DNA from: Acidobacteriota bacterium
Lineage (GTDB): Bacteria > Acidobacteriota > Holophagae > Holophagales > Holophagaceae
Direction: 5' to 3'
Assembly (NCBI GenBank): GCA_016195985.1
Contig: JACPYP010000022.1
Coordinates: 62,001 to 126,000 of the forward strand
Length of the DNA stretch: 64,000 nucleotides
Shown here piece by piece: positions 9,298 to 35,983 of the stretch. The notes under the pieces are model-generated. The model did no database searches, had not been told where the DNA came from, and was given only the letters and a program-made list of their open reading frames with translations. The first letter of the stretch is position 1; each line of letters opens with the position of its first letter. A program made the position numbers and the translations under genes.

Positions 9298-9705
9298 ATG
9301 CGATCCCCCCTCGCCACCTGGGGCCTGTGGACAGGCCTCGCAGCCTGCCTCGCGGCCCTCGCGGCCCATGGCGCGGAGGCCCTGCTGCCCCCTCCACCGG
9401 GCCCCGTTCCGACCCCCCTGGCCGCCTCCCGGCCCGCCGCGCCGCGCCTCCAGGGCCGGGTCTTGACGCCCCTCGAGATGCTCCGGGCCATGGTGGCCCA
9501 GGAACGGCGGCGGCGCGGCCTTCCGGAAGCCACGGTGGAGGTGTGGGGCACCGACGAGGAGGCCGCCCTGAAACGGCTCAGCCTCCAGGTGGCGGCCCAG
9601 GTGCGCCAGCAGTTCCATGTCACGGACAAGCGGGGCCACCAGGAGCTCTACGCGTTCATGCATCAGGACCCCAGCCGGCCGCCGGCCGCTCCGAGGGTGC
9701 CCTGA
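9298..9705 (+). CDS. Hypothetical exported protein
   Basis: I do not recognise this 135-residue protein. It has a hydrophobic N-terminus (residues 6-26, rich in Ala and Leu) that looks like a signal peptide, then a Pro/Ala-rich stretch (29-52), and a charged helical region with VLTPLEMLRAMVAQE and RLSLQVAAQVRQQF. The end is again Pro-rich. No good ribosome-binding site precedes the ATG, so the start is uncertain. It lies 43 bp after the S10 peptidase on the same strand. Confidence 0.55.
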   Translation: MRSPLATWGLWTGLAACLAALAAHGAEALLPPPPGPVPTPLAASRPAAPRLQGRVLTPLEMLRAMVAQERRRRGLPEATVEVWGTDEEAALKRLSLQVAAQVRQQFHVTDKRGHQELYAFMHQDPSRPPAAPRVP

Positions 9706-9804
9706 GGCGCACCTCAGCCACCCTAAGCATCCAGAACCCGCGGGCGTAGCCCAGCCATTCGCACCCGCGCCTCACACGCCACGCACCTCGCCGAAGGAGC
9801 CCCA

Positions 9805-10245
9805 GTGACCGCAGCCCCTTCTCCCGGAAGCCTGCAGGATTTCCGCGTGAATCTGAGAATCCAGTTGGCCGGGCTCTGGACCTCCCTGACCCTGTGCTAC
9901 CTCTACTGCGACTATTTCGAGCTGTACCAGCCGGGGAAACTGGCCTCGATGCTTGCCGGCAGGATGGGCCCCCTGGGCCAGGTCACCCAGGGGATCCTTC
10001 TGACCGCCTCGATCCTGCTGGCCATTCCCGGGCTGATGGTGGCCCTGTCGCTGCTGCTTCCGGCCCGGCTCTGCCGCCTGGCCAACCTGCTCTTCGGGGT
10101 GCTCTTCACCCTCATCATGGCGGTGATCCTTCCGCAGGCATGGCGGTACTACCAGTTTTTCGCCGTGGTGGAGATCTTGATCACGGCCACCCTCACCGGG
10201 CTGGCCTGGCGATGGCCGCGCGCCGATCCAGCGAAACCGGCCTGA
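9805..10245 (+). CDS. Small four-helix membrane protein (DUF6326-like)
   Basis: The 146-residue protein has about four membrane segments (near residues 20-40, 65-85, 92-112 and 117-136). The first pair contains LCYLYCDYFELYQPGK, which I associate with the uncharacterised DUF6326 family. Translation starts at GTG 9805 with AAGGAG 5 bp upstream. No catalytic motif is visible and the function is unknown. The gene converges directly on tetR, whose stop codon begins at the next base. Confidence 0.7.
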   Translation: MTAAPSPGSLQDFRVNLRIQLAGLWTSLTLCYLYCDYFELYQPGKLASMLAGRMGPLGQVTQGILLTASILLAIPGLMVALSLLLPARLCRLANLLFGVLFTLIMAVILPQAWRYYQFFAVVEILITATLTGLAWRWPRADPAKPA

Positions 10246-20556: not shown

Positions 20557-21591
20557 TCAGGTCGTTCGCTTGAGAGCCGCAAGGAGGGATTCCACCTCAT
20601 CGGCCCGGGCATCGGGAAGCAATGAGAATCGAAGCACCGAGCGGGCCTCCTCCAGGCTGTGGCCCAGGGCCGTGATGGCGTGGCTGGGTTTTACGGAGCC
20701 GCTGTGGCAGGCGCTGCCGGTGCTCACCGCGAAACCGGCCAGATCCAGGGCGGCGTGCAGCCCTTCGCCGTTCCGGCCCCGGAAGAGCAGGCAGCTGGTG
20801 TTGGGCAGGCGGGGCGAAGCGCCGCCGATGACCTCGATGCCGCGGTCCCAGGACAGGACCTCGGCTTCGAAGCGGTCGCGCAGCGGAGCGAGGGCCGCGT
20901 TCTTCGCCAGGCGCTCGGGCAGATGATGGGCCGCCGCCGCCAAACCGAGGATGGCGGGCAGATCCTCCGTGCCGCCCCGGCGCCGGCGCTCCTGGGGGCC
21001 TTCCATCACGGCCTCCCAGGGCAGCCCCGGCCTCATCCACAGCAGGGCCGCGCCCCGGGGGCCGCCCATCTTGTGGCCGCTGAACACCGCCGCATCGCAG
21101 TCCGACAGGTCCACGGGCACCTTGCCCCAGGCCTGGGCGCAATCCTTGATGCGCACGGCGCCGGGAAGCTGGGGCATGTCGTAGCAGATGCCCGTTTCGT
21201 TGTTGGCCGCCATCTGGGCCACCAGGGCCGCGCCCTCGGGCACCTCGGGCAGCCAACGCACCTGCGTCCACGCGCGCAGGGGGTTCAGACAGGCGCTGTG
21301 CTCGCCCGGAAAGACCGCGACGGGCAGCCCCCCCAGGGCGGGGCGGAGGCCCTCCAGCAGAAGGTGCAGGGCCTCGGTCGCGCTGGCGCAGAACACCAGT
21401 TCCCCAGGTGCCACATGGAGTCCCCCGGCCAGGCTCCGGCGGGCCTCCTCGAGCAGGTGCCGGGCCCGCTGGCCCTCGCGGTGGGTGCTGGTGGGATTGG
21501 CCCAGGCCTCCGCAAGGGCCCGCTGCACGGCCGCCACGGCCTCGGGATGGGGAGGCGCGGAGGCGTTGGCGTCAACATAGAGGCGAGGCAT
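20557..21591 (-). CDS. Cysteine desulfurase-like class V aminotransferase
   Basis: This 344-residue PLP enzyme resembles NifS/IscS, which take sulfur from cysteine for Fe-S clusters and thio-modifications. The PLP lysine is Lys174 in FSGHKMGGPRG, the catalytic cysteine is Cys295 in STGSACHSGS, and RRGGTED matches the RxGTE motif. It is shorter than housekeeping IscS (about 400 residues) and no iscU, fdx or hsc genes are nearby. It may therefore feed another acceptor, such as the tRNA thiolation enzyme encoded at 6.9 kb. That link is inference. Confidence 0.88.
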   Translation of the reverse strand: MPRLYVDANASAPPHPEAVAAVQRALAEAWANPTSTHREGQRARHLLEEARRSLAGGLHVAPGELVFCASATEALHLLLEGLRPALGGLPVAVFPGEHSACLNPLRAWTQVRWLPEVPEGAALVAQMAANNETGICYDMPQLPGAVRIKDCAQAWGKVPVDLSDCDAAVFSGHKMGGPRGAALLWMRPGLPWEAVMEGPQERRRRGGTEDLPAILGLAAAAHHLPERLAKNAALAPLRDRFEAEVLSWDRGIEVIGGASPRLPNTSCLLFRGRNGEGLHAALDLAGFAVSTGSACHSGSVKPSHAITALGHSLEEARSVLRFSLLPDARADEVESLLAALKRTT

Positions 21592-21639
21592 TCCCCCAGT
21601 CTACAGAGCGGCGAGGCCCCAGGAGGCGGTTCCCCCTCC

Positions 21640-23646
21640 TCAGAAACGGCGGCGTGCGATGAGGTTCAGCTCGCGGCCTCGCGTGAAGAAATAGCCGCCT
21701 TCCACCAGCGGCTGGCGCTCGTGGGCGTTCAAGGCGTTGTGGACCGTGACCTGGAACTCCGTGTGCTTCCAGAGTTCCAGGGCCCGCAGGGACAGATCCA
21801 GGGTCGAGCCTGATGGCAGGTCGGCGTAGGGCCCCTGGTCGTAGGACGGATGGAAGGTTCCCCCGGCCCCCAGGTCCATGCCGGCGTTCCGCGAGCGGGA
21901 GAACGTGCGGTAGCGCCCGGAGAAGACGAGGCTGCGGCTGGGCCTCCAAACCACCCCGAGGGATCCCACCACGGGCGGAAGGTAGAGCGCCTCCCCGCCA
22001 GGCGTGGCGTAAAGCTGGCGGGGGGTGAGCCGCACGTCGTAGGAGCGCTGGTAGGACAGGCTCGCATCCACGTCGAAAACCCGCGTCTCGTAGCGGAGCG
22101 ATCCGCTCGTGTCCCAGTAGCGGTAGCCTCCCACGCTTGCCGCACGCACCTGGTTGAAGCCCCGAGCCTCGGCGAAGTCCCAGTCGAATCCCATCAAGTG
22201 GCTGTACTTCCCGATGGCGCCGTTCCATTCCACGGACCAGGGACCGCCCAACCCGCGCTTCAACCATAGGCTGAGTTGCTGGTTGCGCTCGGGCTTGAGC
22301 TCCTGGCCCTGAACGTAGGGAACGAAGCTGGAACCGGCGGAACCGCTTCCGAAGCGGTACCACAGGTCCATGTAGCGCAGGCCCTCGGCGTAGCGGATGC
22401 CGCCTTCCGTGGGGCCTTCGCGGTACTGGGCCGACACCGAGGGAAGCACGCCGATGTTCGTGAACCCGGAAACCCGCTCCAGACGGAGCCCTCCTTCCAG
22501 GGAGAGGGATGGATTGATCCGCTCCAGCACTGCCACGGCCGCGCCCCCTGCCCCTCGGCGGACCGAGAAATTCATCACGCTCTGATCCAGGGGGCCCTGG
22601 TCCGGGCCCCCGCGCAACCAGGCATTCCGCGCGTCCAGGCTCACCTGGATCGAGGTCCCCGCCACCTCGTACTGCGCTTCCACCCTCAGGGAGGCCCGGG
22701 ATTCCTTCACCTGGTCCCAATTGGCCTGGGTCTGGGTGGTGGCCGAGGAGGCCAACCCCCACTTGGAAACGATGTGATCGCCCCCCAGGGCCACCTTCAT
22801 CCGCCAGCCGTCGGGGAGTTCAAGGGCCTGCGTGCCCTCGATGAAGGAGTAGCCCCAGCGCCGCCCGCAAAAGGCCGTGTCGAAATAATCGTGCTGAAGG
22901 TGGCGGGCCATGAGCTCGAAGTCCCCCTTCTGGACCAGCCCGCCCACCTGCCAGCTGGGGTCTTTGCGGTCCATCCGGTCGCCCTTGGCGAAGTCCGACC
23001 CGGCCTGGCGGACATCTTCGCCGCCCCAGCGCGTGACATCCCCGAACCAGGCGTACTGGCCGTCGCCCCCCCAGCGGTCGCCGCCCCGGGCGTGGAACAA
23101 GGATTTGTCGAAGCGGTCGGCATTGAGCGACTGGCTCAGGCGAACATCCACGCCCCCCTTCTGATCCGCGCCTTCAAAGGGAATGAGATCGACGACCATG
23201 TCCACGGCGCCGGCGGTGCCGTTCCGGTAGCTGGCGGCGGGACCGGTGTAGACGCGGACCTCCTTGAGCCCTTCCAGGAAGCCCGTGCTCCAATCCTGGT
23301 CGGCGCCGCCGAACCAGGCTTTGTTCAGGCTGTGCCCCTTGAACAGGATCAGGACCCGGGACATCTGGCTGGCCGAGAGTTGCGTTCCCGCATCCGAGGA
23401 AACCAAGGGGCCCGAGGCAGGAAAGGACCTCGAACGGTCCCGGGCGATCCGGATTCCCGGAAGGGTGGCCAAGAGGTCGGCCAGATCCCGGGCGCCGGAA
23501 TTCAAAATGTCCTCACGGGTGAGCACCCGCATCCCCGGAAGGCCTTCGAAGCCCGCGGCCGCGGCCCCCTCCGCCCCGCCCCACAGCAGAGGTTGGGACA
23601 GGACCAGGGGAGCCAGGCCCCTCAACAACTGGCGGAAACACGTCAT
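21640..23646 (-). CDS. TonB-dependent outer-membrane receptor
   Basis: The 668-residue protein has a signal peptide (about 1-25), a plug domain (about 38-150, with REDILNSGARDLADLLATLP and VEVRVYTGPAA-like YTGPAASYRNGTAG) and a C-terminal beta-barrel of alternating aromatic strands ending in Phe (RRRF), which is needed for Bam insertion. I see no clear TonB box. Start choice: ATG 23646 has AAAGGA upstream and gives a normal signal peptide, whereas the longer frame adds over 100 Pro/Ser-rich residues. It begins 46 bp after the giant DUF11 gene on the same strand, so co-expression is likely. No siderophore genes are nearby. Confidence 0.88.
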   Translation of the reverse strand: MTCFRQLLRGLAPLVLSQPLLWGGAEGAAAAGFEGLPGMRVLTREDILNSGARDLADLLATLPGIRIARDRSRSFPASGPLVSSDAGTQLSASQMSRVLILFKGHSLNKAWFGGADQDWSTGFLEGLKEVRVYTGPAASYRNGTAGAVDMVVDLIPFEGADQKGGVDVRLSQSLNADRFDKSLFHARGGDRWGGDGQYAWFGDVTRWGGEDVRQAGSDFAKGDRMDRKDPSWQVGGLVQKGDFELMARHLQHDYFDTAFCGRRWGYSFIEGTQALELPDGWRMKVALGGDHIVSKWGLASSATTQTQANWDQVKESRASLRVEAQYEVAGTSIQVSLDARNAWLRGGPDQGPLDQSVMNFSVRRGAGGAAVAVLERINPSLSLEGGLRLERVSGFTNIGVLPSVSAQYREGPTEGGIRYAEGLRYMDLWYRFGSGSAGSSFVPYVQGQELKPERNQQLSLWLKRGLGGPWSVEWNGAIGKYSHLMGFDWDFAEARGFNQVRAASVGGYRYWDTSGSLRYETRVFDVDASLSYQRSYDVRLTPRQLYATPGGEALYLPPVVGSLGVVWRPSRSLVFSGRYRTFSRSRNAGMDLGAGGTFHPSYDQGPYADLPSGSTLDLSLRALELWKHTEFQVTVHNALNAHERQPLVEGGYFFTRGRELNLIARRRF

Positions 23647-23692
23647 GGCAGATCCTTTGGCTGAGCGCGCTGAATGTCGAAGCTCCGGCGGG

Positions 23693-26600
23693 TCATGGCC
23701 CGCATCCCTGCACCGGGGTGCGGGCGCTCGCCTGGACCGTTCCGCCATTGCTGGTGAGGAAGACGGCGTGGTTCGCCAGGTAGAGATAGGGCAGGCGGAC
23801 GGCCATCCGGGTGGAAATCCGGATGGAGAAGGATTGCCCCGGCAGAACCGTTCCCACGGACCAGGTGTTGGTGGTTCCCAGGTCGGGAGCCGGACTGGCG
23901 GACAGGAACTGGACCTTCGGATCCAGGACCGACGTGATGACCACGTCCCTGGCGGTGACATTCGACACGTTGGAATAGGTCACCACATAGTCGATCGCGC
24001 CGCCGCAGGACACGGAGGATTGCAGGGAAGCATCGGAGATGGCCATTTGCGGAATGCCCACGGCGGCCTGGGTGACCTGGTTCCCCGGCTGGCTCAGATC
24101 GCCGTCCGTGGAGGTCTGGGCGTTGTTGGTGCCGCCTCCCGTGGCATCGAAGTTCACCGTGGCCTGGTTGAGGATCCGGTCCACGCCCGCCGGAAGCGGA
24201 GAATGGATGCGCACCTGGAAGCTGAGCGGAAGCTGCGCTCCGGGAGGGAGGACCAGGTTGGACACCCGCAGCGTCGGAGTTTCGGACAGGACCGTCGCCC
24301 CGGCCGGCACCACCACGCTTCCGGGCGCATACGTGGTGTTGGCGGGAAGAACATCGACGAACTCCACGCCCTGCATCAGGAAGCCGGAGGGGTTGCTGAT
24401 GAGGATGTCGTACCGCAGGTCATCCCCCGGCTCGATGGCCCCGCCATCGACGGGAACCACCAGCTCCGTGGCGCTGAGGCGGGGCATGTTGCCCACGGGA
24501 ATGACCGTGGGCTGCTGCCCGGGCAGGGCCGTGTCCCCGTCCGTGAGGACCGGCGTGTCGTTCGTTCCCGATCCCGTGGAATCGTAGGCGACCGTCCCCT
24601 GGCTGGACAAGACGAGGCCCGGCGAAATGCCGGATTGGACCACCACGTCAGAGACGAGGATGACCGTTCCGCCCGCGGGAATGTCGCCGGTCCACAGGGC
24701 CGCCTGGCTCGAAGCGTCGAACTGGACGGACCCGGAGCTGGCGGAATCGGATCCTGCCACGTGATCCGTGCGGGCCGGCAAGGGCCAGCGGTAGGCGGCG
24801 CCGCTCGAATCCTGGTTTCCCCGGTTCTGGATCACGGTGCGGTACCGGAGGCGGTCTCCGGGCGAGACGAGACCGTCCGCGTCCACATCCCCGGTCAGGG
24901 CCACCGTCAGGGTGGCGCCGTCCAGGTTGGGCCCCGCCCGCAGCGCCAGGACCGTGGCCTGATCACCGGGAACGACCGTGTCGCCGTCCGTGGGAAGCTG
25001 CGCGTCGTTCGTCCCGTCCCCATTCGAATCGAAGCCGAGCGCGCCCTGGCTGACGATCTGGGTGACGCCCGGGGCGACGGGCAGATCCACCCTCACCCGG
25101 AACGCGAGGCTCACCTGTCCGTGGGCCGGAATGTCGAGGCCCTGGACGCGGAGAACGGGCGAGACCGCCGTCAGGACGGTTCCCGTCGGGCTGATGAGGC
25201 TGCCTGCCACGAAGGAGGTGTGGGCGGGAATCGGGTCGGTGTAGTCCGCTCCCAGCACCGGGGTGTTGCCGAGGTTCTGGAAGATCATGGTGTAGAGGAT
25301 CTCGTCGCCGGGGCTGAGGTTCCCGCCGTTCACGTCCGTGGCCGATTTCAGCGCGCGGAGGTCGCTCGGGAGGGCCCCCACCGTCACGGCCGCCGAGGCC
25401 GTGGCCTGGCTGGCGGAACCGCAGGGCGCCGTCACCGTCAGGGTGTAGGTGGTCGCGCTCTCCGGCCCGCTGGACAGAACATAGGTTCCCCCCGAAACGA
25501 TGGGGAGCGCGCCCGGCTCGATGAGGCCCGAGCCGCCAGAGAAGGTGGCCGCGAAGGTCACGGCCTGCCCCGCGCCGATCCCCCCCGGCGTCGCGGTGAA
25601 GGAGGCGATGGCCGGGGCGGGATTCACCACGACCCGAGCCGAATGGTCCGTGCTGCCTCCAGGGCCCGTCAACGTCAGGGTGTAGGTCGTGGTCGCGGCA
25701 GGGGAAACAGGAATGGTTCCGGATCCGGCCGAGACATCCACCGCCAGGTTGCCCGGATTCAACAGGCCGCTGGTCGCGTCGGAGGCCGTCCATCCCAGCG
25801 TGGCGGAACAGCCGCTGGAAATGGCGGGGCCCGCGCTCAGGCTTCCAGTCGGAGCCCCGCCGCCGGAGACCGTGACCAGGGCCGTCGAGACCGCCTGGCT
25901 TGCCGATCCGCAGGGAGCCGTCACCACCAGACTGTACGTGGTGGTGGCCGAGGGTCCCGGATTGAGGATGAAGGGAACCCCCGAAGTCAGGACCTGGCCG
26001 CCAGGGCTGAGGACGCCGGTCCCTCCCGAGAAGGTGGCGTTGAAGGTGACGGAGGCCCCGGCGCTGATCTGCCCCGGCGAAGCCGTGAACGCCGAGATGG
26101 AGGGGGCCGGGTTCACCGTGACGGTGGCGCTGAAGGTGCTCGTCCCGCCTGGACCGCTGAGGGTCAGGGTGTACGTGGTGGTGCTGCCCGGCGAGACGAG
26201 GATCGAGCCGGAACCATTCGCGGCGGGAAGGCTCCCCACGCCGTTGTCGACGCTTCCGCCGGTGGCGTTGGCGGCCGTCCAGTTCAGGGTGGCGCTGCAG
26301 CCCGCCGAGATCGTGGTCCCTCCACTCAGGCTGCCTGCCGGGACGTTCCCCACGGCCACCGTGGCCTGGCGCGTGGCCTGGGAGGCCGCGCCGCAGGGGG
26401 CGGTCACGGTGAGCGTGTACGTGGTGCTGGCGCTGGGCCCTGGATCCAGGACGAGATCCACCCCCGAACTCAGGGGCAGGTTCCCCGGCGTGATGAGGCC
26501 CGTGCCACCCGAGAACGTGGCGGAGAAGGTCACGGGCGCGCCGGCTGCGATGGTGCTGGGCGCCACACCGAAGGCGGCGATGGAGGGCGCCGGATTCACG

Positions 26601-29600
26601 GTGACCGTGGCCGCATAGGTGGTCACGCCGCCGGGGCCCGTCAAGGTGAGGGTGTACGTGGTGGTGCTGGCCGGTGAAACCACCAGAGTGCCCGAACCGT
26701 TCCCCACGGGAAGACTGCCCCCCCCGTTGTCGAGGCTGCCGCTCGTGGCGCCCGAGGCCGTCCAGCTCAGGGTGGCGCTGCATCCGGCGGAGATGGCGGC
26801 CGGACCGCCCAGGCTGCCCGAAGGCGGGGCCGTAAGGGGCATGCGGGTGGGTTGGGCCCCGGCCGTGAGCGTGTCGCCGTCGGTGAGGACCGAATCGGCG
26901 TTGGAGCCCACCCCGGCCCCATCGTAGGCCAGGGTGCCCTGGTTCAGGATGCTCGTGACGCCCGAGGGAATGGAGCTGTCGACCAGCACCTGGAAGGTGA
27001 GCGAGGCCTGTCCTCCCGCCGGGATCAGCAGGCCGCTGACCTGCAGGGGCGAGGTGGAAACGAGGCTGGCGCCCGCCGGGAGCGTGGCGCTGGAGGGCAC
27101 ATAGCTGGTGTGGCTGGGCATCAGGTCCGTGAAGGTTCCGCCAGAGAGGGTGTAGCCGCTCGCGTTCTGGAAGGTCACCGTGTAGGTGAGTGTGTCCCCG
27201 GGGTCCGCGGTCGCGTGGCCGTTGGTGGCATCGGCGACGGTCATGGTCGCCACCGGGGCCGGAGCGCTCCCCAGCACGAGGGTGGCCGGCTGCTTCCCGG
27301 GCGAGGCCAGGTCCGCGTCCGTGAGGACCGACGTGTCGGGGCTGCCGCTTCCCGTGGCGTTGAAGGACACCGTGCCCTGGTTGGACACCGTGGTTCCAGG
27401 CGCCACCGCGGCGTTGACCTGGACATCGAACACCAGCTGGACCGAGGCACCTGCTGCCACGTCACCGGACCAGGTGATTTTGCGGGCCGTTCCGTCATAG
27501 GCCGCCGTGCCTGCGGATGCGGTCAGCGTCCCGGCCTTGAAGGTGACCTGGGAGGGCAGCGAATCTTCGAACGCGACGCCTGCCGCATCCTGGTTGCCCA
27601 TGTTCGGAAGGATGAGGGTATAGCGCAGGGTGTCGCCGGGCGAAGCGCCTCCGCTGGCGTCGGCATCGGCCACGAGGGCCACGGTCTTGGCGCTGGTGTC
27701 GAAGTTGGGACCCGCCGTCAGGGCGATGACCGTCGGCTGGCCCGGGGTGTTGCCGTCCGTCAGCAGCGTGGTGCCGTTGCTGCCGCTCCCCGTGGGATCG
27801 TAGAGCAGGGTTCCCTGGTTGGAGATCTGCGTGAGGCCCGCGGGAACGGCGGAGGGCACGCGCACCCTGAAGGTGAGAAGCGCCAGGCCGCCGCCCGGCA
27901 GATCGATGCCGGTGACATCCACCGGAGATTCCGTCACCACGGTGCTTCCCGCAGGCGCGGAAAGGCTGGAGGCCACATAGCTCGTGTTGGCCGGAAGGGT
28001 GTCCCTGAACTCGGCGTTCGACACGGAATAAGGCCCGCTGTTCTGGAGGCGGATGGTGTAGGTGAGCGTGCCTCCCGGCACGAGGTTGCCGCCCCCGTCC
28101 ACGGACACGGACTTTTCCGCCGTGACGACGGGGCCGCCGGAAAGAGGGGTGACGGTGGCGTCGGCGGAGGCGACGGTGCCGGGATCGTCCGTGAGAATTG
28201 CCGACAGGGTGTCCGCCCCCAGGCTGCCCTGGGTGCTCACAGAGGCCACCCCCGCCGCGAGGGGCCGCCCGATGACGGCCTGGAACGTGATGGTGGCCGA
28301 GCCGCCCGCCGCCAAGGAGGGGATATCGATGCGGATGGAGGCGTCCCCTCCCGAGTTGCCGGTGGTCACCGTTCCCGTCGTGCTGGTGGCGCTCCCGCTC
28401 ACCAGGCTCAGGTGGGTTCCCGGCGTGCATTGGAACACCGCGTTGGTGGCGGCACCGCCGCCCGGATTGGAGATCACGGCCGTGTAGGTCAACGTGTCGC
28501 CAGGCGTCACGGTGCCGCTCCCATCCGTGTCCGTGCCCAAGGCCGCCGTAAGGGTGGCGGCGAGGGCCGGCGAGCTGCTCACCGTCACGTCCACGGCACC
28601 GCCCGCGGAGGCGGAGGTCTGGTCCGAAGCGATCGAGTAGGTGGTGTTGCTGATCACCGTGCCGTTGGAAAGCCCTGCGCCCGCCTTGACCGTCAGGGTC
28701 ACGGTGCCGGAGGCGCCTGCCGCCACCGTTCCGAAGCTCCATCCCACCACGCCGGCGGTGTTGGTTCCCCCGTCCGAGGCGGAGACGAAGGTGGTGTTCC
28801 CGGGCAGCGTGTCGGACAGGCTCGCGTGGGTCGCCTGATCCGTGCCCGTGTTGCTGTAGTGCAGGGTATAGACGATGTCCTGGCCCGGCCCCACCGTCGC
28901 GGCGCCCGCGTTCTTGGAGACGGCCAGCACCGGCGCGCTGGTCAGGGCCGTGTTGGCGGTGGCGGTGGCGGAACCAGCCTCGTTGCAGCTCACGGCCAGG
29001 GAGCCGGAAAGCACGGTTCCGTTGGCGACGGGACTCGGCGCGGTTCCCGACACCGTGAAGCCGCCGCTCCCTCCTGAGGCCAGGGCGCCGACGGCCCAGG
29101 CCACCGTCCCGGCCCCGGCGTTGTAGACGCCGCCGCCCGTGGCGCTGATGAAGCTGTAGCCCGTGGGAAGGGTCAGCACGACGGTGGTGCCCGTGGCGGT
29201 GGTGGTGCCGGTGTTTCCGTAGGACACGGTGTAGGCCAGGCTGGCCCCGGCAGAAGCCGAAGCGGGAGCCGACAGGCCCGCGGCCATGACGGGCGCGCTC
29301 GTGGCCGTGGTGGAGGCGCTGGCGGAGGCCGGGCCCGTTTCATTGCAGGAAAGGCCGAGGGAGGCGGTCAGCACCGTGCCGTTGACCATGGGACTGTCCA
29401 CAGTGACGTGGACCGTCTGGCTTCCGCTCGCCCCTGCGGCCAGGGAGCCCAGGCTCCAGGTCACGGTCCGCGCCCCGGCGGCGTAGCTCCCGCCGCCCGT
29501 GGCGCTGACGAAGGTGACGCCGACCGGAAGGGTCAGCACCGCCGAGGTGCCCGTCGCGCTGGAGGTGCCCTGGTTGCCGTAGGACGCGGTGTAGTCGAAA

Positions 29601-32600
29601 CCCGTTCCCGAGGCCGCCGTGGCCGGCGCGGAAAGACCGTCCGTCAGCCCTGGCGACAGGGACACGGACACGTTGGCGGCGGTATTCAGCAGGGGATCGA
29701 AGGTGCCCGCCGGCGTCCCGCCGGAGCTGGTCACGGAGAGGTCGTTCGGGAAGGTCTGCCCTCCGACGCCCGCGGCGATATCGGCCCGGAACGTGATCTG
29801 GAGGATGCCGCTGGCAGGGATGCTGAACGTGCCCCAGGCGGGGACCTGATCCCCGGGGGTGGGCGAGGAGGTCACCGTTCCGCCCGTCACGGTCGTGGTG
29901 TCCTTGTAGGTGAAGCCCGAAGGCAGAGTGTCGGTCACGAGCACGCCGGTGGCTGCGGCGGTGCTGGTGTTCTGGATGGTGATGTCGTAGGAGGCCACCG
30001 CCCCGGAGGCGGTCTGGACCACCGTGGGCGTCGAGGTCGACTTGGCCGGCCGGAGCCCGCCCACGCCCGTCGTGAACGAGGCTGTGGCCGTGGTGGCGCC
30101 ACTGGCGGACAGGGAAGCATTGTCCACGGCATTGCCCGCGGAACCCGGGAAGAAGGTGACCTTCACGGATCCGGAGCTTCCCGCCGCCAGCGCGCCCAGG
30201 GACCAGGTGACGGTCCCCGGCCCGGAGGCGTAGACTCCCGGCGCAGTGGACGCTGCGTAGACCGCCCCGGCCGGCAGCGTGTCCACCAGGGTCGCGCTGG
30301 CCGAATCGGCTGTTCCTGAATTCGCGTACTGCAGGGTGTAGGTCAGGCTTCCGATCACGGGCGCGTTCTGCGCCACGGTGGCCGCGCTGCTCAGGGTGAG
30401 GGTGTCGCCGGAGATGGCGGTGATCTGCCGGACCTGGCCGGACACCAGGACGTACTGGTTCACCGAGAAGGCGGAGGGATCGCTGACTTGAAGGGCCGTC
30501 CCCGCGCTGGCGGCGGAGGCCACTGAACCCGGATATGGAGACGTGGAAGGCCCCAGCTTCACGAGGGACAGGACCGCCGAGGCCGATACGGTCGCGGTGG
30601 CGCTGGCCGACTTGGTGGCGGCATTGGCGGCCACCACCTGGGAGGTGGGCGTCACTGCGGTGCTCCCCGAGAGCATGGGGTTCTGCAGGAGGATCCGGTA
30701 GACCAGGGTCTGGGTCGCCCCCGCGGCCAGGGTTCCCAGGCTGAATTGGGTCCGGTTGTTCACAGCGTCGAAGGTGCCGGCGTCATCGCCGGATCCGTCG
30801 GTGAGCGGAGTCCCCCCCAGGGTCATGGACCCAGAAACGAAGGCGGCGTAGGACGGAACCGTGCCATAGGCCAGCACGCTGGAGGCGCTGGCGCCGCCGG
30901 TGTTGGCGACGGTGAGCGTCACCGTGAGCGTGTCGCCGGGGCTGCGGGTGCCGCTGGGGCTGATGGCCTCGGTCAGGCTCAGGTTGGGCAAGGGATTGAT
31001 GGTGACCGCCACCGCGTTGCTGGAGCGGGAACCCGAAGTCTGCGCATCCGAGACCGTGGCCGTGTTGGACAGCTGGGTCTGGGTCGCGGGGAAGGTGCCC
31101 GAGGCGCCGCCCTGCATCTGGAAGGTGAGGGAGGCGGAGGCGCCCGGAGCCAGGGATCCCAGGTTGTAGCTGAGGGTCCCCCCGGAAACGGAATCGGCCA
31201 CGGAGCCTCCGTTCACGCGGGTGCTGCCCGGCACATAGGCGAAGTAGGCCTGGACCGGGAGCACGTCGCCGAGGGTGACGCTGGTGGCGGTTCCGGTTCC
31301 GCCGTTGAGGGCCGTGAGGGTGTAGGTCACAGTCTCGCCGGGCCCGACAAGGGTGCGGTCCGCCGATTTGGCGACGGTGACGGAAGGCCTCAGGACGGTG
31401 GTGGCGGCCGCATCCGTGACTGCCGAAGTCTCGTTGCTCACGAGGGAGGCGAGGTTCGACAGGGAGGTGATTCCCGAAGCCAGAGGACTGTTCACCGTGG
31501 CCGCGATCACCAGGGTGCCCGCCTGCCCGCCCGTGACCTGGCCCGAGGTGGCCGTGTCTGAGGAGCGGACATTGAAGGTGTAGATCTGGCCGCTGACGGA
31601 GGCCGCCGACACCCCGGCGCCATTAAGGCTCGCGGTGGCGAAGGTCACCCCCGCTGGGAGCGTGTCGGCGATCTGCGCGCCGGTGGCATTGGTCTGGCCC
31701 GTGTTGGAGAAAAGGATGGTGTAGGTGAGGGTGTCGCCGGGGGCGGCCGTCAGCTTGTCCACCTGCTTATCGATGATGAGGTTGGCCGGAGGCGTCACGC
31801 AGTAGTTGGCGTTGGCGTTGGCGTTGGTGGTTCCGCCGCTGATGGGGTTCGTCACCGTTCCGCCGTACTGGAGGTAGACGGTGTCCGAACCGTTCGTGTT
31901 GGATTTCACGCTGTAGATCCACAGGAGGCGGTGCCCCTTCTGCAGGGTTCCGGACAGAGGAACCGTGAAGGGGGTTAGTGCGCCCTTGGTGCTGCCCGTG
32001 AAGGACTGGGTCGCCGTCGACCCCAGCTGGATCTTGGATCCGGTCGCGGAATCGTAGTCGAAGAGCTGGGTCTGGATCGTGATGCCGCCGCCGTTCGCGC
32101 GGTCCAGGTAGAAGCTCGTGGTCAGGTTGCCGCTGAGGTTCACGGCGTTGGCGATGGCCGGATCGGTGTAGAAGCGCACGGCCTCGACGTAGGTCTGGTT
32201 GGTGGGAGTGATCACCTGCGTGTTCGTCCCCGCGCCGCCGGGAACGGTGGTGGTGGCGACTTTCTGGGTGCCGTCGAAGCCCACGTTCGCTGTGCTGGCG
32301 TAGAAGTAGTAGGTGCTGCACACCGAACCGCTCTGGTTCACCCCCAGCCAGAACGAATTGCTGGCCGGGCTGACTCCCGTGGCTGCGAGGGTGACCGTGT
32401 TGACCAGCGGATTGGCGCCCGAGTACCCGCTGGGCACATTGAGCGTCACGGTCACCGAGCCCGTGGCGTTGGCCGCCAGATCCGCCAGGTTCCATGTGAC
32501 GGTGCCTCCGCTGTTCGTCCCTCCGCCGGTGGCCGACACGAAGGTGAGCCCGCTCGGGATGGGATCGGTCAGCACGAGGCCCGTGGCCGTGGCATTGCCC

Positions 32601-34867
32601 GTGTTCGCGTAGGAAATCGTGAAGACCACGTTGCTGTTCGCTGCCACGGTGGCCGGCGACGTCGATTTCTGGACCGACAGCACGGGCCGGGAGGCGTTTA
32701 CGTACAGGCTGGCGCTGGCCGTGGCCGTGCTGGCCTCGGTGGAGGTGAGCGAGGCCGTGTTGACGACCGGAACGGCGGCCCCGGAGGGGAAGGGATTGTC
32801 CACAGTGACCGTCACGGTCACGGATCCGGATCCGCCAGCCGGAATGCTTCCGAGGCTCCAGGCCACCGTCCGCGTGCCCGACGTGTAGCTCCCTCCGCCG
32901 GAGGCCGACACGAAGGTGAGGCCCGCGGGCAGCACGTCCGAAAGCGCCGCTCCCGTGATGTTCACGGGCGAATCGTTGCTGTAGGCCAGGGTGCAGGTGA
33001 CCGTATCCCCGGGGTTGGCCGAATTGACCGAGAAGGTCTTCAGCAAGGAGAGCCGGGGCGAGCCCACCGAGACCGATGTGCTTCCGGATGTCAGTGTTCC
33101 CGAGCTCGCCACGACTGTGGCGAGGTTGCTATAGGTTCCTGCTGAGGCCGGCGCCGTGGTCCTGAAGATCAAGGTCCTGCTCGACGAGGCGGGAACGGAA
33201 ACCGCGGGGAAGGTCCAGGTGAGGGTGCCGGTCGCGTTGTTGGCCGGGCCTCCGCTGGGGGCCCCGAGCGTCCCCCCCAGGCCCGCCGTCGTGTAGGTGA
33301 ATCCGGAAGGCAGGGTGTCGGTGATGCTGCTCACGGTGATGGCCGAGGCGTTCGTGTTGAACACCGTGATGGTGAAGTTGACGGTGGCGCCCGCGCTCAC
33401 GGGACCCGCGGCATCGCTGCTCTTCGTGGCGTAGGGAGGCGGAAGCCCGCAGGTGTTGGTGAAGGAGGCCGTCACGGCCCCCACCGCCGAGGGGTTGGTG
33501 TAGTTCGGCGGCGAAGGCGGCGAGCTGGGATCGAGCCAGCTGGTCGTGATGTTGCCTTCGGTATCGGTGGCCACGGCTCCGATCAGGTAGCGCCCGTTGG
33601 CCAGGGAGCTGGTGTTCCAGGTGGCGGTCCACTGCCCCAGCACGCTGCTGCTGGCCGCGCCGCTTCCGATGAGCGTCCAGCTGCTGCCGTCGTTGGCCGT
33701 CCCGTCCCCATTGAGGTCCGCATAGGCATAGAACTGCACCGAGGCCACCGTGGTCACGGCCACGCCGCCGGAGAAAGTCTGGGCATCGGCCACCTGGGCC
33801 GTGAGCGCCGCCGGTCCGCAGCCGCTGGCGGAGATGGAGGAGACAATGGGCTGGGGGATCGTGGTCCCCGTGGCGGTCAGCACATCGCCGAAGGGTGCCG
33901 GGGCATTGGGATCGGCGATGTAGGTGTAGTCCCCGGAGGTGACCACATCCTTCTGGAAGGGATTGTTCAGGCTGTTCGAGGTGGCGAACAGGAAGGAGAC
34001 CGGCGTGGCCTCCGTCACCAGGGGGCCTCCCACGGACCGGGCGTCGAGCAAGGCCAGCGGCACCTGGAAATCGAGGAAATATTCCGTGCAGCCCGAACCC
34101 GGAACGGCCGAGCAGCGCGTCATGCCATAGTCCCACGTGCTTTCCGAGCTTCCATTGGGCCAGGAAACATCCGGCGCATTGGCGCTATGGAAGTTGAGGA
34201 TCTTGCCTCCCGGGGCATCCACGAAGGCCGCCGGGAATTGGTTCACGAGGTAGATCCCTGCGGTGCTGATGTAGTCGAGGGATTGGACCTTGTTGGCGCT
34301 CCAGATGATGGAGATTCGATCCACGGGCGTGCTCGGCGCTCCGGTGCTTCCGTTCAGCTGGACGGCGAAATCGCGGTACCCGTCCCCGTTGATATCGATC
34401 AACACGGACCAGATGGCAGACTTCCAGGGGTCCGTGGTGGCGGCGGACCCGGCGCTGGGGCCCGTGGCGTAGGTGTTGGGCTGGGCCGCCAGGCGGAAGC
34501 GGAAGAACATCCGCTTGGAGGTGCTGTTGTAGGACCAGTAGACGCTGGGCAGAGTCTTGTCGGTGCAGCCGGAACTGACGTTGACGTAACTCTGGGGGGA
34601 GGTTCCGCCGTTGCTGGGATCGGAAGTGGCCGGGTCCGTGAGAGAGCTTCCCCGGCTCGTGTAGGTCGCCCAGGCAGCTTCTGCAGGCCAGGCTACGGGG
34701 GTCATCCCCGCGGGCTGCGTTCCGTAGACCGGCCATGTGTTCGCGGCCGGCCAGGGCGCGTCCGCGCTCAGGGCACCAGGCCGCAACAGGAAGAGGCCAA
34801 GCCCCAGAACCCGCCAGGCCGACCTGATCCCATGTGGCAGACACCGGTACATCACCTCGAGCGACAT
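23693..34867 (-). CDS. Giant secreted DUF11-repeat protein, about 3,724 residues
   Basis: One uninterrupted 11.2-kb frame encodes a giant surface or secreted protein. A signal peptide ends near LLRPGALSA. Residues about 40-330 form a unique N-terminal domain with Ca-binding-like stretches (DINGDGYRD; later DLNGDGTANDG). From about residue 480 come some 19 DUF11 repeats, each with PGDTLTYT-like and LPAGxTF-like strands. A non-repeat domain interrupts them (about 31795-32335), and three tandem 161-163-residue Ig-like units lie at 25367-26821. The C-terminus is a DUF11-like end without LPxTG, PEP-CTERM or barrel features. Start 34867 has GGGGG upstream; ATG 34852 and GTG 34903 are alternatives. 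An adhesin or stalk role is inferred. Confidence 0.9.
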   Translation of the reverse strand: MSLEVMYRCLPHGIRSAWRVLGLGLFLLRPGALSADAPWPAANTWPVYGTQPAGMTPVAWPAEAAWATYTSRGSSLTDPATSDPSNGGTSPQSYVNVSSGCTDKTLPSVYWSYNSTSKRMFFRFRLAAQPNTYATGPSAGSAATTDPWKSAIWSVLIDINGDGYRDFAVQLNGSTGAPSTPVDRISIIWSANKVQSLDYISTAGIYLVNQFPAAFVDAPGGKILNFHSANAPDVSWPNGSSESTWDYGMTRCSAVPGSGCTEYFLDFQVPLALLDARSVGGPLVTEATPVSFLFATSNSLNNPFQKDVVTSGDYTYIADPNAPAPFGDVLTATGTTIPQPIVSSISASGCGPAALTAQVADAQTFSGGVAVTTVASVQFYAYADLNGDGTANDGSSWTLIGSGAASSSVLGQWTATWNTSSLANGRYLIGAVATDTEGNITTSWLDPSSPPSPPNYTNPSAVGAVTASFTNTCGLPPPYATKSSDAAGPVSAGATVNFTITVFNTNASAITVSSITDTLPSGFTYTTAGLGGTLGAPSGGPANNATGTLTWTFPAVSVPASSSRTLIFRTTAPASAGTYSNLATVVASSGTLTSGSTSVSVGSPRLSLLKTFSVNSANPGDTVTCTLAYSNDSPVNITGAALSDVLPAGLTFVSASGGGSYTSGTRTVAWSLGSIPAGGSGSVTVTVTVDNPFPSGAAVPVVNTASLTSTEASTATASASLYVNASRPVLSVQKSTSPATVAANSNVVFTISYANTGNATATGLVLTDPIPSGLTFVSATGGGTNSGGTVTWNLADLAANATGSVTVTLNVPSGYSGANPLVNTVTLAATGVSPASNSFWLGVNQSGSVCSTYYFYASTANVGFDGTQKVATTTVPGGAGTNTQVITPTNQTYVEAVRFYTDPAIANAVNLSGNLTTSFYLDRANGGGITIQTQLFDYDSATGSKIQLGSTATQSFTGSTKGALTPFTVPLSGTLQKGHRLLWIYSVKSNTNGSDTVYLQYGGTVTNPISGGTTNANANANYCVTPPANLIIDKQVDKLTAAPGDTLTYTILFSNTGQTNATGAQIADTLPAGVTFATASLNGAGVSAASVSGQIYTFNVRSSDTATSGQVTGGQAGTLVIAATVNSPLASGITSLSNLASLVSNETSAVTDAAATTVLRPSVTVAKSADRTLVGPGETVTYTLTALNGGTGTATSVTLGDVLPVQAYFAYVPGSTRVNGGSVADSVSGGTLSYNLGSLAPGASASLTFQMQGGASGTFPATQTQLSNTATVSDAQTSGSRSSNAVAVTINPLPNLSLTEAISPSGTRSPGDTLTVTLTVANTGGASASSVLAYGTVPSYAAFVSGSMTLGGTPLTDGSGDDAGTFDAVNNRTQFSLGTLAAGATQTLVYRILLQNPMLSGSTAVTPTSQVVAANAATKSASATATVSASAVLSLVKLGPSTSPYPGSVASAASAGTALQVSDPSAFSVNQYVLVSGQVRQITAISGDTLTLSSAATVAQNAPVIGSLTYTLQYANSGTADSASATLVDTLPAGAVYAASTAPGVYASGPGTVTWSLGALAAGSSGSVKVTFFPGSAGNAVDNASLSASGATTATASFTTGVGGLRPAKSTSTPTVVQTASGAVASYDITIQNTSTAAATGVLVTDTLPSGFTYKDTTTVTGGTVTSSPTPGDQVPAWGTFSIPASGILQITFRADIAAGVGGQTFPNDLSVTSSGGTPAGTFDPLLNTAANVSVSLSPGLTDGLSAPATAASGTGFDYTASYGNQGTSSATGTSAVLTLPVGVTFVSATGGGSYAAGARTVTWSLGSLAAGASGSQTVHVTVDSPMVNGTVLTASLGLSCNETGPASASASTTATSAPVMAAGLSAPASASAGASLAYTVSYGNTGTTTATGTTVVLTLPTGYSFISATGGGVYNAGAGTVAWAVGALASGGSGGFTVSGTAPSPVANGTVLSGSLAVSCNEAGSATATANTALTSAPVLAVSKNAGAATVGPGQDIVYTLHYSNTGTDQATHASLSDTLPGNTTFVSASDGGTNTAGVVGWSFGTVAAGASGTVTLTVKAGAGLSNGTVISNTTYSIASDQTSASAGGAVDVTVSSSPALAATLTAALGTDTDGSGTVTPGDTLTYTAVISNPGGGAATNAVFQCTPGTHLSLVSGSATSTTGTVTTGNSGGDASIRIDIPSLAAGGSATITFQAVIGRPLAAGVASVSTQGSLGADTLSAILTDDPGTVASADATVTPLSGGPVVTAEKSVSVDGGGNLVPGGTLTYTIRLQNSGPYSVSNAEFRDTLPANTSYVASSLSAPAGSTVVTESPVDVTGIDLPGGGLALLTFRVRVPSAVPAGLTQISNQGTLLYDPTGSGSNGTTLLTDGNTPGQPTVIALTAGPNFDTSAKTVALVADADASGGASPGDTLRYTLILPNMGNQDAAGVAFEDSLPSQVTFKAGTLTASAGTAAYDGTARKITWSGDVAAGASVQLVFDVQVNAAVAPGTTVSNQGTVSFNATGSGSPDTSVLTDADLASPGKQPATLVLGSAPAPVATMTVADATNGHATADPGDTLTYTVTFQNASGYTLSGGTFTDLMPSHTSYVPSSATLPAGASLVSTSPLQVSGLLIPAGGQASLTFQVLVDSSIPSGVTSILNQGTLAYDGAGVGSNADSVLTDGDTLTAGAQPTRMPLTAPPSGSLGGPAAISAGCSATLSWTASGATSGSLDNGGGSLPVGNGSGTLVVSPASTTTYTLTLTGPGGVTTYAATVTVNPAPSIAAFGVAPSTIAAGAPVTFSATFSGGTGLITPGNLPLSSGVDLVLDPGPSASTTYTLTVTAPCGAASQATRQATVAVGNVPAGSLSGGTTISAGCSATLNWTAANATGGSVDNGVGSLPAANGSGSILVSPGSTTTYTLTLSGPGGTSTFSATVTVNPAPSISAFTASPGQISAGASVTFNATFSGGTGVLSPGGQVLTSGVPFILNPGPSATTTYSLVVTAPCGSASQAVSTALVTVSGGGAPTGSLSAGPAISSGCSATLGWTASDATSGLLNPGNLAVDVSAGSGTIPVSPAATTTYTLTLTGPGGSTDHSARVVVNPAPAIASFTATPGGIGAGQAVTFAATFSGGSGLIEPGALPIVSGGTYVLSSGPESATTYTLTVTAPCGSASQATASAAVTVGALPSDLRALKSATDVNGGNLSPGDEILYTMIFQNLGNTPVLGADYTDPIPAHTSFVAGSLISPTGTVLTAVSPVLRVQGLDIPAHGQVSLAFRVRVDLPVAPGVTQIVSQGALGFDSNGDGTNDAQLPTDGDTVVPGDQATVLALRAGPNLDGATLTVALTGDVDADGLVSPGDRLRYRTVIQNRGNQDSSGAAYRWPLPARTDHVAGSDSASSGSVQFDASSQAALWTGDIPAGGTVILVSDVVVQSGISPGLVLSSQGTVAYDSTGSGTNDTPVLTDGDTALPGQQPTVIPVGNMPRLSATELVVPVDGGAIEPGDDLRYDILISNPSGFLMQGVEFVDVLPANTTYAPGSVVVPAGATVLSETPTLRVSNLVLPPGAQLPLSFQVRIHSPLPAGVDRILNQATVNFDATGGGTNNAQTSTDGDLSQPGNQVTQAAVGIPQMAISDASLQSSVSCGGAIDYVVTYSNVSNVTARDVVITSVLDPKVQFLSASPAPDLGTTNTWSVGTVLPGQSFSIRISTRMAVRLPYLYLANHAVFLTSNGGTVQASARTPVQGCGP
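25367..26821 (-). repeat. Three tandem Ig-like repeat units inside the giant gene
   Basis: The units lie at 26339-26821 (161 codons), 25850-26338 (163) and 25367-25849 (161). Each has the order GSLxxG, (A/S)GCSATLxW, TTTYTLTLxGPGG, VNPAP, then TFxATFSGG and TTTYxLxVTAPCG(A/S)ASQA. Two conserved Cys per unit (GCSATL and APCG) suggest one disulfide each. They separate two groups of DUF11 repeats. Confidence 0.88.
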
Positions 34868-35056
34868 CAAGCCCCCAAGAACCGCTGGCCGAGTCATCGT
34901 CACGCGGGAGGCCGCCTGTTAAATTCCATTCAATTTGGATCAGTTTCTAGATAAAAACAGTGCGCGTTGAGATTACCTTCATGGAATTCCCATTCCGCGC
35001 CCTCCGGTCAGAATCTGTGAGGAAATGCGAAACGGCCCCCCGGGCTACCCTGGGGC

Positions 35057-35983
35057 ATGTCCCAATCCCTGGAAGGCAAGCTCGTCGTCGCCCTTTCGTC
35101 CCGGGCCCTTTTCGATTTCGAGGAGGAAAACCGCGTTTTCGAAGAGACCGATGACCGCGCCTACATGGCGCTGCAGCTGTCGCGCCTGGATGTGCCCGCT
35201 CAACCCGGCGTCGCCTTCCCCCTGGTGAAGAAGCTGCTGGCCTTCAACGGGAGCGGCGCAGGCCTCGTGGAGGTCGTGATCATCTCCCGCAATGATCCCG
35301 TGAGCGGCCTGCGCGTGTTCCACAGCGCACAGGCGGCCCAGTTGAAGCTGGAGCGGGGCGTGTTCACACGGGGAAGCTCGCCGTACCGGTACCTTCGCCC
35401 CTTGCACGCCACCCTGTTCCTGTCCGCCCGCGAGGAGGATGTGCGCGCGGCCCTGAGCGCGGGTTTCGCCGCCGCCCGGGTCTACCCCGACAGTGCTCTG
35501 GCCGCGGACCGCCACCCGCAGGAAATCCGCATCGCCTTCGACGGCGATGCCGTGCTGTTCAGTGACGAGGCTGAGCGCATCTACGCCCAGTCGGGCCTGG
35601 CGGCCTTCCAGGCCCATGAGACCGCCCGGGCCGCCATTCCCCTGCCCCCGGGGCCCTTCAAGCCCCTGCTGGAGGCCCTGAAGCCCCTCCAGGCCCAACG
35701 TGCGGATGCGCCCATGCGCATCCGCACGGCCCTGGTCACGGCCCGCAGCGCCCCCGCCCACGAGCGGGCCATCCGCACCCTCATGGCCTGGGACATCCAG
35801 GTGGACGAGGCCATGTTCCTGGGTGGCCTGGAGAAGGCGGAGTTCCTCCGCGAATTCGAGCCCGACTTCTTCTTCGACGACCAGACCGGCTACTGCGAGA
35901 CCGCCTCCCGCGTGGGGCCCACGGGCCACGTGGTAAGCGGCGTCAAAAACGAGCCACAGATGAACACGGATGAACACAGATAA
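35057..35983 (+). CDS. 5'-nucleotidase of the cytosolic NT5C1-like family
   Basis: The 308-residue protein matches the 5'-nucleotidase family that dephosphorylates nucleoside monophosphates in the cytosol. Recognisable blocks are LVVALSSRALFDFEEEN near the start, VVIISRNDP, AFDGDAVLFSDEAE, LVTARSAPAHERAI and PDFFFDDQTGYCE. The last nine residues (PQMNTDEHR) and the TAA stop come from a dispersed AACAC-rich repeat, so the native C-terminus has been replaced or extended. The upstream gene is divergent, so it has its own promoter in the AT-richer 34868-35056 gap, where I could not define boxes. Confidence 0.88.
   Translation: MSQSLEGKLVVALSSRALFDFEEENRVFEETDDRAYMALQLSRLDVPAQPGVAFPLVKKLLAFNGSGAGLVEVVIISRNDPVSGLRVFHSAQAAQLKLERGVFTRGSSPYRYLRPLHATLFLSAREEDVRAALSAGFAAARVYPDSALAADRHPQEIRIAFDGDAVLFSDEAERIYAQSGLAAFQAHETARAAIPLPPGPFKPLLEALKPLQAQRADAPMRIRTALVTARSAPAHERAIRTLMAWDIQVDEAMFLGGLEKAEFLREFEPDFFFDDQTGYCETASRVGPTGHVVSGVKNEPQMNTDEHR

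Follow-up and report, generated by a model that had tools for sequence, protein, structure and literature searches.

Organization of the locus

The window, by which we mean the whole 64,000-nucleotide stretch of Acidobacteriota (Holophagaceae) DNA that was analysed, carries on its minus strand a gene for a giant DUF11 (CLIPPER) protein, followed on the same strand by a gene for a TonB-dependent receptor-like protein and flanked by class-V aminotransferase and 5'-nucleotidase genes (Table 1). The giant gene starts at a GTG (34903), with an in-frame ATG 12 codons downstream (34867), which is where a preliminary description of this DNA had placed the end of a long frame without a stop. That frame is borne out here, with 3,736 codons on the minus strand and no internal stop, and the plus-strand reading of the same stretch contains several stops. 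Judged by eye, the start of the protein resembles a signal peptide, with GLGLFLL followed by GALSA, and no lipobox cysteine was seen in it. Homology backs the coding assignment: in local BLAST alignments with the low-complexity filter off, residues 31–2148 align with the protein of the relative G067 at 54% identity, and residues 1–3504 with that of the locus L052 at 36%. Because these homologues align over long stretches, we regard the frame as a real coding gene.

Table 1. Features of the giant-gene locus, in window coordinates
Feature	Position	Strand	Basis
Flanking class-V aminotransferase, left flank of empty site	20557..21591	-	Pfam, congener comparison
Insertion, 13,465 bp, giant gene and receptor	21592..35056	.	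Flanks direct neighbours in congeners
TonB-dependent receptor-like gene, 668 aa, plug and divergent remainder	21640..23646	-	Pfam Plug
Giant DUF11 (CLIPPER) protein, 3,736 aa, one frame	23693..34903	-	ORF, Pfam, own-repeat HMM
DUF11 units 16-19, no complete triad; C-terminus without recognised anchor	23696..25366	-	Pfam, own-repeat HMM, triads
Three tandem Ig-like copies, ~161 residues each, residues 2696-3179	25367..26818	-	Repeat comparison
DUF11 units 4-15, triad complete in 4, 5, 7, 8, 11, 13	26900..31786	-	Own-repeat HMM, triad anchors
Inserted domain, residues 855-1040, no Pfam match	31784..32341	-	Pfam scan of 31769-32341
DUF11 units 1-3, isopeptide triad complete in all	32354..33445	-	Own-repeat HMM, triad anchors
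Ig-like domain after head, ~residues 350-488	33440..33855	-	AlphaFold2 model matches
Head domain, residues 68-350, predicted CBM9/CBM74/DOMON-like beta-sandwich	33854..34702	-	AlphaFold2 and VIA-align
Putative signal peptide region, no lipobox	34760..34867	-	Judged by eye, counted from ATG 34867
Flanking 5'-nucleotidase, right flank of empty site	35057..35983	+	Pfam, congener comparison

The giant gene and its receptor neighbour occupy one probable insertion

A gap of 46 bp separates the giant gene from the receptor gene that follows it, and no other gene lies in the 13,465 bp between the flanking genes. These flanks adjoin in all 15 congeners examined (of 46), with gaps of ~21 to 234 bp by match borders (the gap sequences were inspected in ten of the 15). 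Given this empty site, parsimony favours the arrival of both genes in one insertion, as far as can be read from sequence comparison; repeated loss in the congeners is the less likely alternative. No integrase was recognised by Pfam among ten neighbouring genes scanned, and no flanking repeat longer than 10 bp was found at the insertion. The GC contents of the inserted genes (0.69 and 0.67) differ little from the value for the window as a whole (0.67), and promoter-like and terminator-like sites at the locus occur at background level only. Relatives of the N-terminal head module described below were found neither in plasmids (at E ≤ 1e-5) nor, by pattern scan, in viral contigs, and hence no mobile carrier was identified.

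The receptor is recognised by its Plug domain (E 6.6e-8, 33.5 bits against a Pfam cut-off of 23.9). No beta-barrel model matched it in Pfam at E ≤ 0.01, the NCBIfam receptor models match weakly and far below their cut-offs, and a search against the PDB gave no match. Counting the receptor itself, matches occur in 14 of the 77 family genomes and in at least 70 of the 396 genomes of a phylum sample; among the matches listed, all others are partial, covering up to ~290 of the 668 residues on the plug side. The idea that the receptor is a conserved partner of the giant protein finds no support, as its relatives are only partial and it does not stand beside the giant gene in the family members G066 and G067.

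The stalk contains 19 DUF11 units, nine of them with complete isopeptide triads

Pfam assigns 19 stretches of the giant protein to DUF11 (PF01345) with 497.4 bits, the cut-off for membership being 24.6 bits, and an HMM trained on the repeats of the protein itself finds 19 units above 8 bits, in agreement with the count of about 19 given in the preliminary description. NCBIfam gives 475 bits for a DUF11 repeat model and 156 bits (cut-off 30) for the isopeptide-forming fimbrial domain TIGR04226. The DUF11 family was characterised in 2025 and renamed CLIPPER, a domain that carries isopeptide bonds and builds the stalks of fibrillar adhesins (PMC12617251). A profile of 18 of our 19 units, leaving out unit 7 with its insertion, matches 9IFR, a solved CLIPPER structure, at E 8.2e-4, and the Lys and Asn of the profile align with the bonded pair of 9IFR as reported in the same text (PMC12617251). 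The catalytic residue is given there as Asp-748 (PMC12617251), and the DxL aspartate falls at 749 when the 9IFR chain is counted from Lys-715 as the fixed point, which we take as a difference in numbering.

With triad anchors placed by eye on each unit, the Lys/Asp/Asn triad is complete in nine of the 19 units (1–5, 7, 8, 11, and 13), unit 7 having its insertion between the Lys and the Asp. The remaining ten are incomplete, among them all of units 14–19; unit 16 has a triad without the Asn. Lys–Asn cross-links, if formed, would cluster towards the head. Lysine accounts for 0.84% of the residues in the mature protein, and the 90 positions that lie 34–38 residues ahead of the Asp site in 18 units (all but unit 7) hold nine lysines, one of them in unit 16, compared with 0.76 expected; the corresponding probability of 8e-8 is descriptive only, since the positions were picked after the repeats had been seen. 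A rough motif count, made in the same way for relatives, gives complete triads in six of nine motif-bearing units of the giant protein, in 1/6 for G067, 0/6 for G066, and 2/6 for G116, and in 11/14, 6/8, 4/7, 4/5, and 3/4 for L052, L053, L055, L056, and L058, respectively. The low counts in G067 and G066 compared with L052–L058 indicate, at the level of sequence, that most triads are gone from the closest relatives and that more distant ones retain them. A phmmer search with a single repeat returned lectins (best E 6e-6, in several short, weak pieces) and beta-lactamases, which we took as chance matches.

The three Ig-like units noted earlier are confirmed as tandem copies that are 59–68% identical to one another, each holding two Ig-like halves by eye. 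A stretch resembling the inserted domain occurs in G066, G067, and G116 (by eye). The G116 giant (L041:6618-18101) also has many intruding hairpin-like repeats of the form 'GSGYTSAPTV...GGGGSGA' within its DUF11 region, again by eye. At the C-terminus, where the last 477 and the last 265 residues were scanned, Pfam returned only DUF11-type families, with a Dockerin_1 row at E 0.32, below cut-off, and no type IX sorting domain, so the earlier statement that no known anchor is visible there is upheld within Pfam's reach. Nor did Pfam recognise an enzyme domain, Peptidase_C25 included, anywhere in the protein. A search for SprA_N returned nothing in the window's genome or in any other genome searched, controls included.

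Predicted fold of the head: a ligand-binding-type beta-sandwich

The stalk is preceded by an N-terminal module of ~440 residues, and the first 500 residues of the protein have no Pfam match above cut-off. An AlphaFold2 model of the whole module reached a mean pLDDT of 77.7 from an alignment of only 13 sequences. Foldseek ranked Sas6 first for it (E 3.4e-7), but with TM-scores near 0.2. The head domain was also folded alone; for residues 68–350 the mean pLDDT was 81.3, from only 15 sequences. With this model, Foldseek gave nothing at E ≤ 0.001 (best E 7.3e-3), and VIA-align placed 7uwu first (Z 9.5, 188 aligned residues, 4.0 A, 13% identity), followed by 4jpq (Z 8.4), 2ivf (8.0), and 1i82 (6.6). 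Rows identified by name include CBM9 (6.6 and 6.4), nitrite oxidoreductase (6.6), and dopamine beta-hydroxylase (6.2), and antibody rows begin at Z 5.0. The head's Z of ~9 at 13% identity is modest, and according to the tool a best Z of 7–8 is usual for models with no true relative. We take 7uwu to be the CBM74 of Sas6, 4jpq a putative carbohydrate-binding protein, and the row at Z 8.0 the ethylbenzene dehydrogenase subunit; the top matches are thus presumably sugar- and heme-binding sandwiches of one type. The Ig-like domain that follows the head resembles, in its model, SiiE (Z 8.9) and fibronectin-III domains.

The head is thus likely, judging from the predicted fold, to be a ligand-binding-type beta-sandwich. 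Alignment A1 (eight sequences including the giant protein) has 34 invariant columns, among them no Met or His, which makes sugar a more likely ligand than heme. One Lys is invariant, and Lys is the heme ligand in the ethylbenzene dehydrogenase subunit, which leaves heme as the second candidate. We do not claim membership of CBM74, CBM9, or DOMON: none of these Pfam families matches the head at E ≤ 1, and a profile of the head found no solved structure among PDB chains at E ≤ 1 or E ≤ 10.

Relatives occur in several phyla

Within the family, the head was found in four of 77 genomes, several of which are incomplete: the window's own, G066 and G067 from another genus, and G070, which holds only a fragment. 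In the window's genus it occurs in one of 47 genomes, the window's own, and the idea of a giant gene common to the whole genus was rejected on this count, several of the 47 being incomplete drafts. The G070 fragment (L047, about 9700-10143) is a decayed piece of the head between the neighbours that flank the giant gene in G066 and G067, which are of the same genus as G070. In the phylum sample, at least eight of the 396 genomes have the head, the window's own included.

A scan of named genomes with a single head sequence found nothing; a profile scan with alignment A1 found 14 head loci. They belong to Holophagaceae UBA692 (the same as G067), other Acidobacteria (one labelled Thermoanaerobaculum), three Chloroflexi, two Nitrospirae, CSSED10-310, Desulfobacteraceae, and an unclassified MAG, and the head is 47–57% identical in the Chloroflexi and Nitrospirae MAGs. 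Pfam was run on ten of the loci (all but L059, which ends at a contig end, L061, L062, and L065), with L057 represented by L041, where the same gene is complete. DUF11 was recognised in seven of the ten, a C-terminal Peptidase_C25 in six, and both in three. Frames of comparable length occur among the relatives, with 3,828 codons in G116, 3,024 in L053, and at least 3,880 in L052, whose C-terminal side is interrupted by a contig end. The long relatives examined keep one frame rather than being split into several proteins, G070 having only its fragment. DUF11 itself is found in 11 of the 77 family genomes, the window's own included.

The preliminary description had raised the possibility of a new type of cell-surface fibre. 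This does not hold: relatives of similar length and the same domain order exist in Acidobacteria, Chloroflexi, and Nitrospirae, and DUF11 stalks have been published. The protein is a variant of a known adhesin class with an unclassified head rather than a new kind of fibre. Literature searches joining Holophagaceae with adhesin, Geothrix with DUF11, or gingipain with DUF11 returned no papers in the library searched.

C25 was found in five of the nine head-bearing genomes searched, being absent from G000, G066, G067 (83% complete), and G070 and present in all five others. In L054, L055, L058, and L064, which span three phyla, a radical SAM gene comes after the C25 gene (tested in L054, L055, and L058, by eye in L064), and after it a gene for a protein of ~300 residues, which has a weak HprK-related kinase B/ScmC match in L055 and L058 and was judged by eye in the other two. 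A signal-peptidase-like gene comes next in L058 and L064 (tested) and in L054 (by eye), and this neighbourhood looks like a peptide-maturation cassette. Near the DUF11–C25 giant of a Nitrospirae MAG lies a gene for an FGE-sulfatase protein with a lipoprotein-like start (L055:8092-9087, minus strand).

Relatives in the family have other neighbours

The giant gene has other ARRANGEMENTS in its relatives G067 and G066, where it stands third, after genes for a barrel-like protein of ~199 residues and a lipoprotein-like protein of 608 residues. The G067 copy of the latter has an FGE-sulfatase domain by Pfam. The FGE lipoprotein of the relatives has a match to GldK that lies below cut-off (75.3 of 350 bits). 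The barrel-like protein itself has no Pfam match; a relative of it in G048 matches OMP_b-brl with 31.3 bits (cut-off 28.7). The G066 barrel gene (L040) contains one in-frame TAG. The same gene order is seen in G048, with a DUF11 frame of 1,449 codons, and in G044, with a repeat protein that ends at the contig end. These four genomes hold the only near-full-length matches to the lipoprotein among the matches listed for the 77 family genomes, and relatives of the barrel protein, many of them weak, occur in 45 of the 77. In the window's genome, one of the barrel relatives and a lipoprotein-like match together adjoin a gene whose protein has a Peptidase_S74 domain. From the order in these four genomes and in the window's own, we conclude that a barrel-like protein and a lipoprotein recur beside large surface-type proteins in the family, and that the locus in the window departs from this pattern in having a receptor instead.

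Several further observations concern these genes. The recurrent Holophagaceae order of small barrel-like protein, FGE-sulfatase lipoprotein, and large repeat protein is seen at L039:5045-7486, L040, L079, and L080. Close to the barrel/lipoprotein-like pair of the window's genome is a frame of 852 codons (L087:12567-15122, minus strand) that resembles phage tail fibres, with collagen-like and Peptidase_S74 (endosialidase chaperone) domains. Two more giant frames of that genome, with 3,292 (L081:1116-10994) and 2,130 codons (L082:1132-7524), are related over parts of their length to the FGE lipoprotein, namely to its Ig-like N-terminal portion.

Proposed function and alternatives

The reading that we favour, and hold to be reasonably probable, is that of a horizontally acquired, fibrillar-adhesin-like fibre with a glycan-binding head and an isopeptide-stiffened stalk, whose receptor was acquired together with it. 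The protein would be exported, presumably by Sec, and either secreted or kept on the surface. Its head, with the predicted CBM9/CBM74/DOMON-like fold, would bind a ligand, most likely a glycan, and the 19 CLIPPER units and the Ig-like copies would form a stalk of ~3,200 residues, stiffened on the head side by intramolecular Lys–Asn isopeptide bonds. The gene would have been gained horizontally as a two-gene cassette with the TonB-dependent receptor, which, if the two are co-transcribed and functionally linked, probably imports ligand captured by the head or helps to hold the fibre. That link may also be accidental, as the receptor does not adjoin the gene in G066 and G067. The role in adhesion or as a stalk suggested in the preliminary description gains support from the identity of DUF11 with the CLIPPER stalk domain and from the predicted ligand-binding type of the head.

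We consider it unlikely, but worth weighing, that the protein is instead a structural scaffold serving as matrix, as stalk, or in aggregation, without a specific ligand and with an N-terminal module that only caps or assembles the fibre. Most of its length is Ig-like repeat with no anchor or enzyme domain recognised by Pfam, and the DUF11 proteins cited in PMC12617251 stabilise archaeal cell aggregates or are proposed S-layer parts. However, the head is conserved across phyla and occurs without DUF11 on the C25 proteins L054, L063, and L064, from which we argue that it has an activity of its own.

Descent from gingipain-family (C25) surface peptidases, with loss of the catalytic domain and a substrate that is now only retained or competed for, strikes us as improbable. 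It would fit both the C-terminal Peptidase_C25 of six of the ten Pfam-scanned named relatives (of 14) and the way in which C25 is divided among the head-bearing genomes, but the giant protein has no C25 match, and L053 (unclassified MAG) and L056 (Chloroflexi), whose C-termini are complete, likewise lack the domain.

The receptor could also be dedicated to the giant protein, either exporting it or tethering it to the outer membrane, by analogy with Oar, which according to PMC6434023 is needed for PopC secretion in Myxococcus. The two genes fill one insertion and share a strand, with no terminator-like site in the 46-bp gap (the scan being at background level), and yet we doubt this role: no receptor stands beside the gene in G066 and G067, relatives of the receptor are only partial in the family and phylum samples, and TonB-dependent receptors normally import. 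A more far-reaching version, in which the insertion is a self-contained fibre module whose receptor exports or tethers the adhesin in place of the relatives' barrel-like protein and FGE lipoprotein, is speculative and, in our estimate, has a small chance of being correct; if true, Gram-negative bacteria would have a way of displaying giant fibres that is coupled to a receptor. That the frame is a pseudogene or an assembly artefact is hardly credible, for in spite of the one decayed relative known (G070), all 3,736 codons are open, long relatives exist, and isopeptide triads are retained.

The proposed glycan-binding fibre would add a giant, probably partly isopeptide-bonded adhesin to this class, and its unclassified head is common to stalk proteins and C25 peptidases across phyla. 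The occupied and empty sites, together with the same adhesin beside different outer-membrane partners in relatives, amount to a natural experiment that makes the Gram-negative display of giant fibres without a recognised anchor testable.

Comparison with known systems

The DUF11 giants of G066 and G067 (UBA692) have the same head followed by a DUF11 array, with best local alignments of 50% and 54% identity, respectively, over more than 2,000 columns. They differ in their distal Flg_new_2/InlB-type repeats (by Pfam for G067/L060, by eye for G066) and in their locus, where the barrel-like protein and the FGE lipoprotein precede and no receptor follows. The C25 (gingipain-family) proteins of L041, L054, L055, L058, L063, and L064 share the head module, and those of L041, L055, and L058 the DUF11 stalk as well, whereas their C-terminal Peptidase_C25 was not found in the giant protein or its genome.

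SprB-type giant adhesins are secreted by the type IX system, with the lipoproteins GldK and GldJ. The likeness to them is one of working only: they too are giant adhesins, and the relatives' barrel-like protein and FGE lipoprotein, with its sub-cut-off GldK match, recall the SprB/GldK/GldJ systems. In contrast to these, the giant protein showed no sorting domain when its C-terminus was scanned with Pfam, and the FGE lipoprotein is not beside its gene. CLIPPER adhesins such as Acinetobacter silvestris B9T28_05395 (9IFR) resemble it in their tandem triad-bearing DUF11 units, their length, and their Gram-negative host (PMC12617251). The 9IFR protein bears the label 'OmpA-like domain-containing protein', whereas the giant protein has no recognised C-terminal anchor, and the latter further differs in its other, unclassified head and in having only nine of 19 triads intact.

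For the head itself, the nearest system is Sas6/CBM74, a starch-binding protein of Ruminococcus bromii. Although identity is 13% and there is no sequence match, it is the best structural match to the head, and its sandwich and the next Ig-like domain were both aligned in order (7uwv, 7uww).
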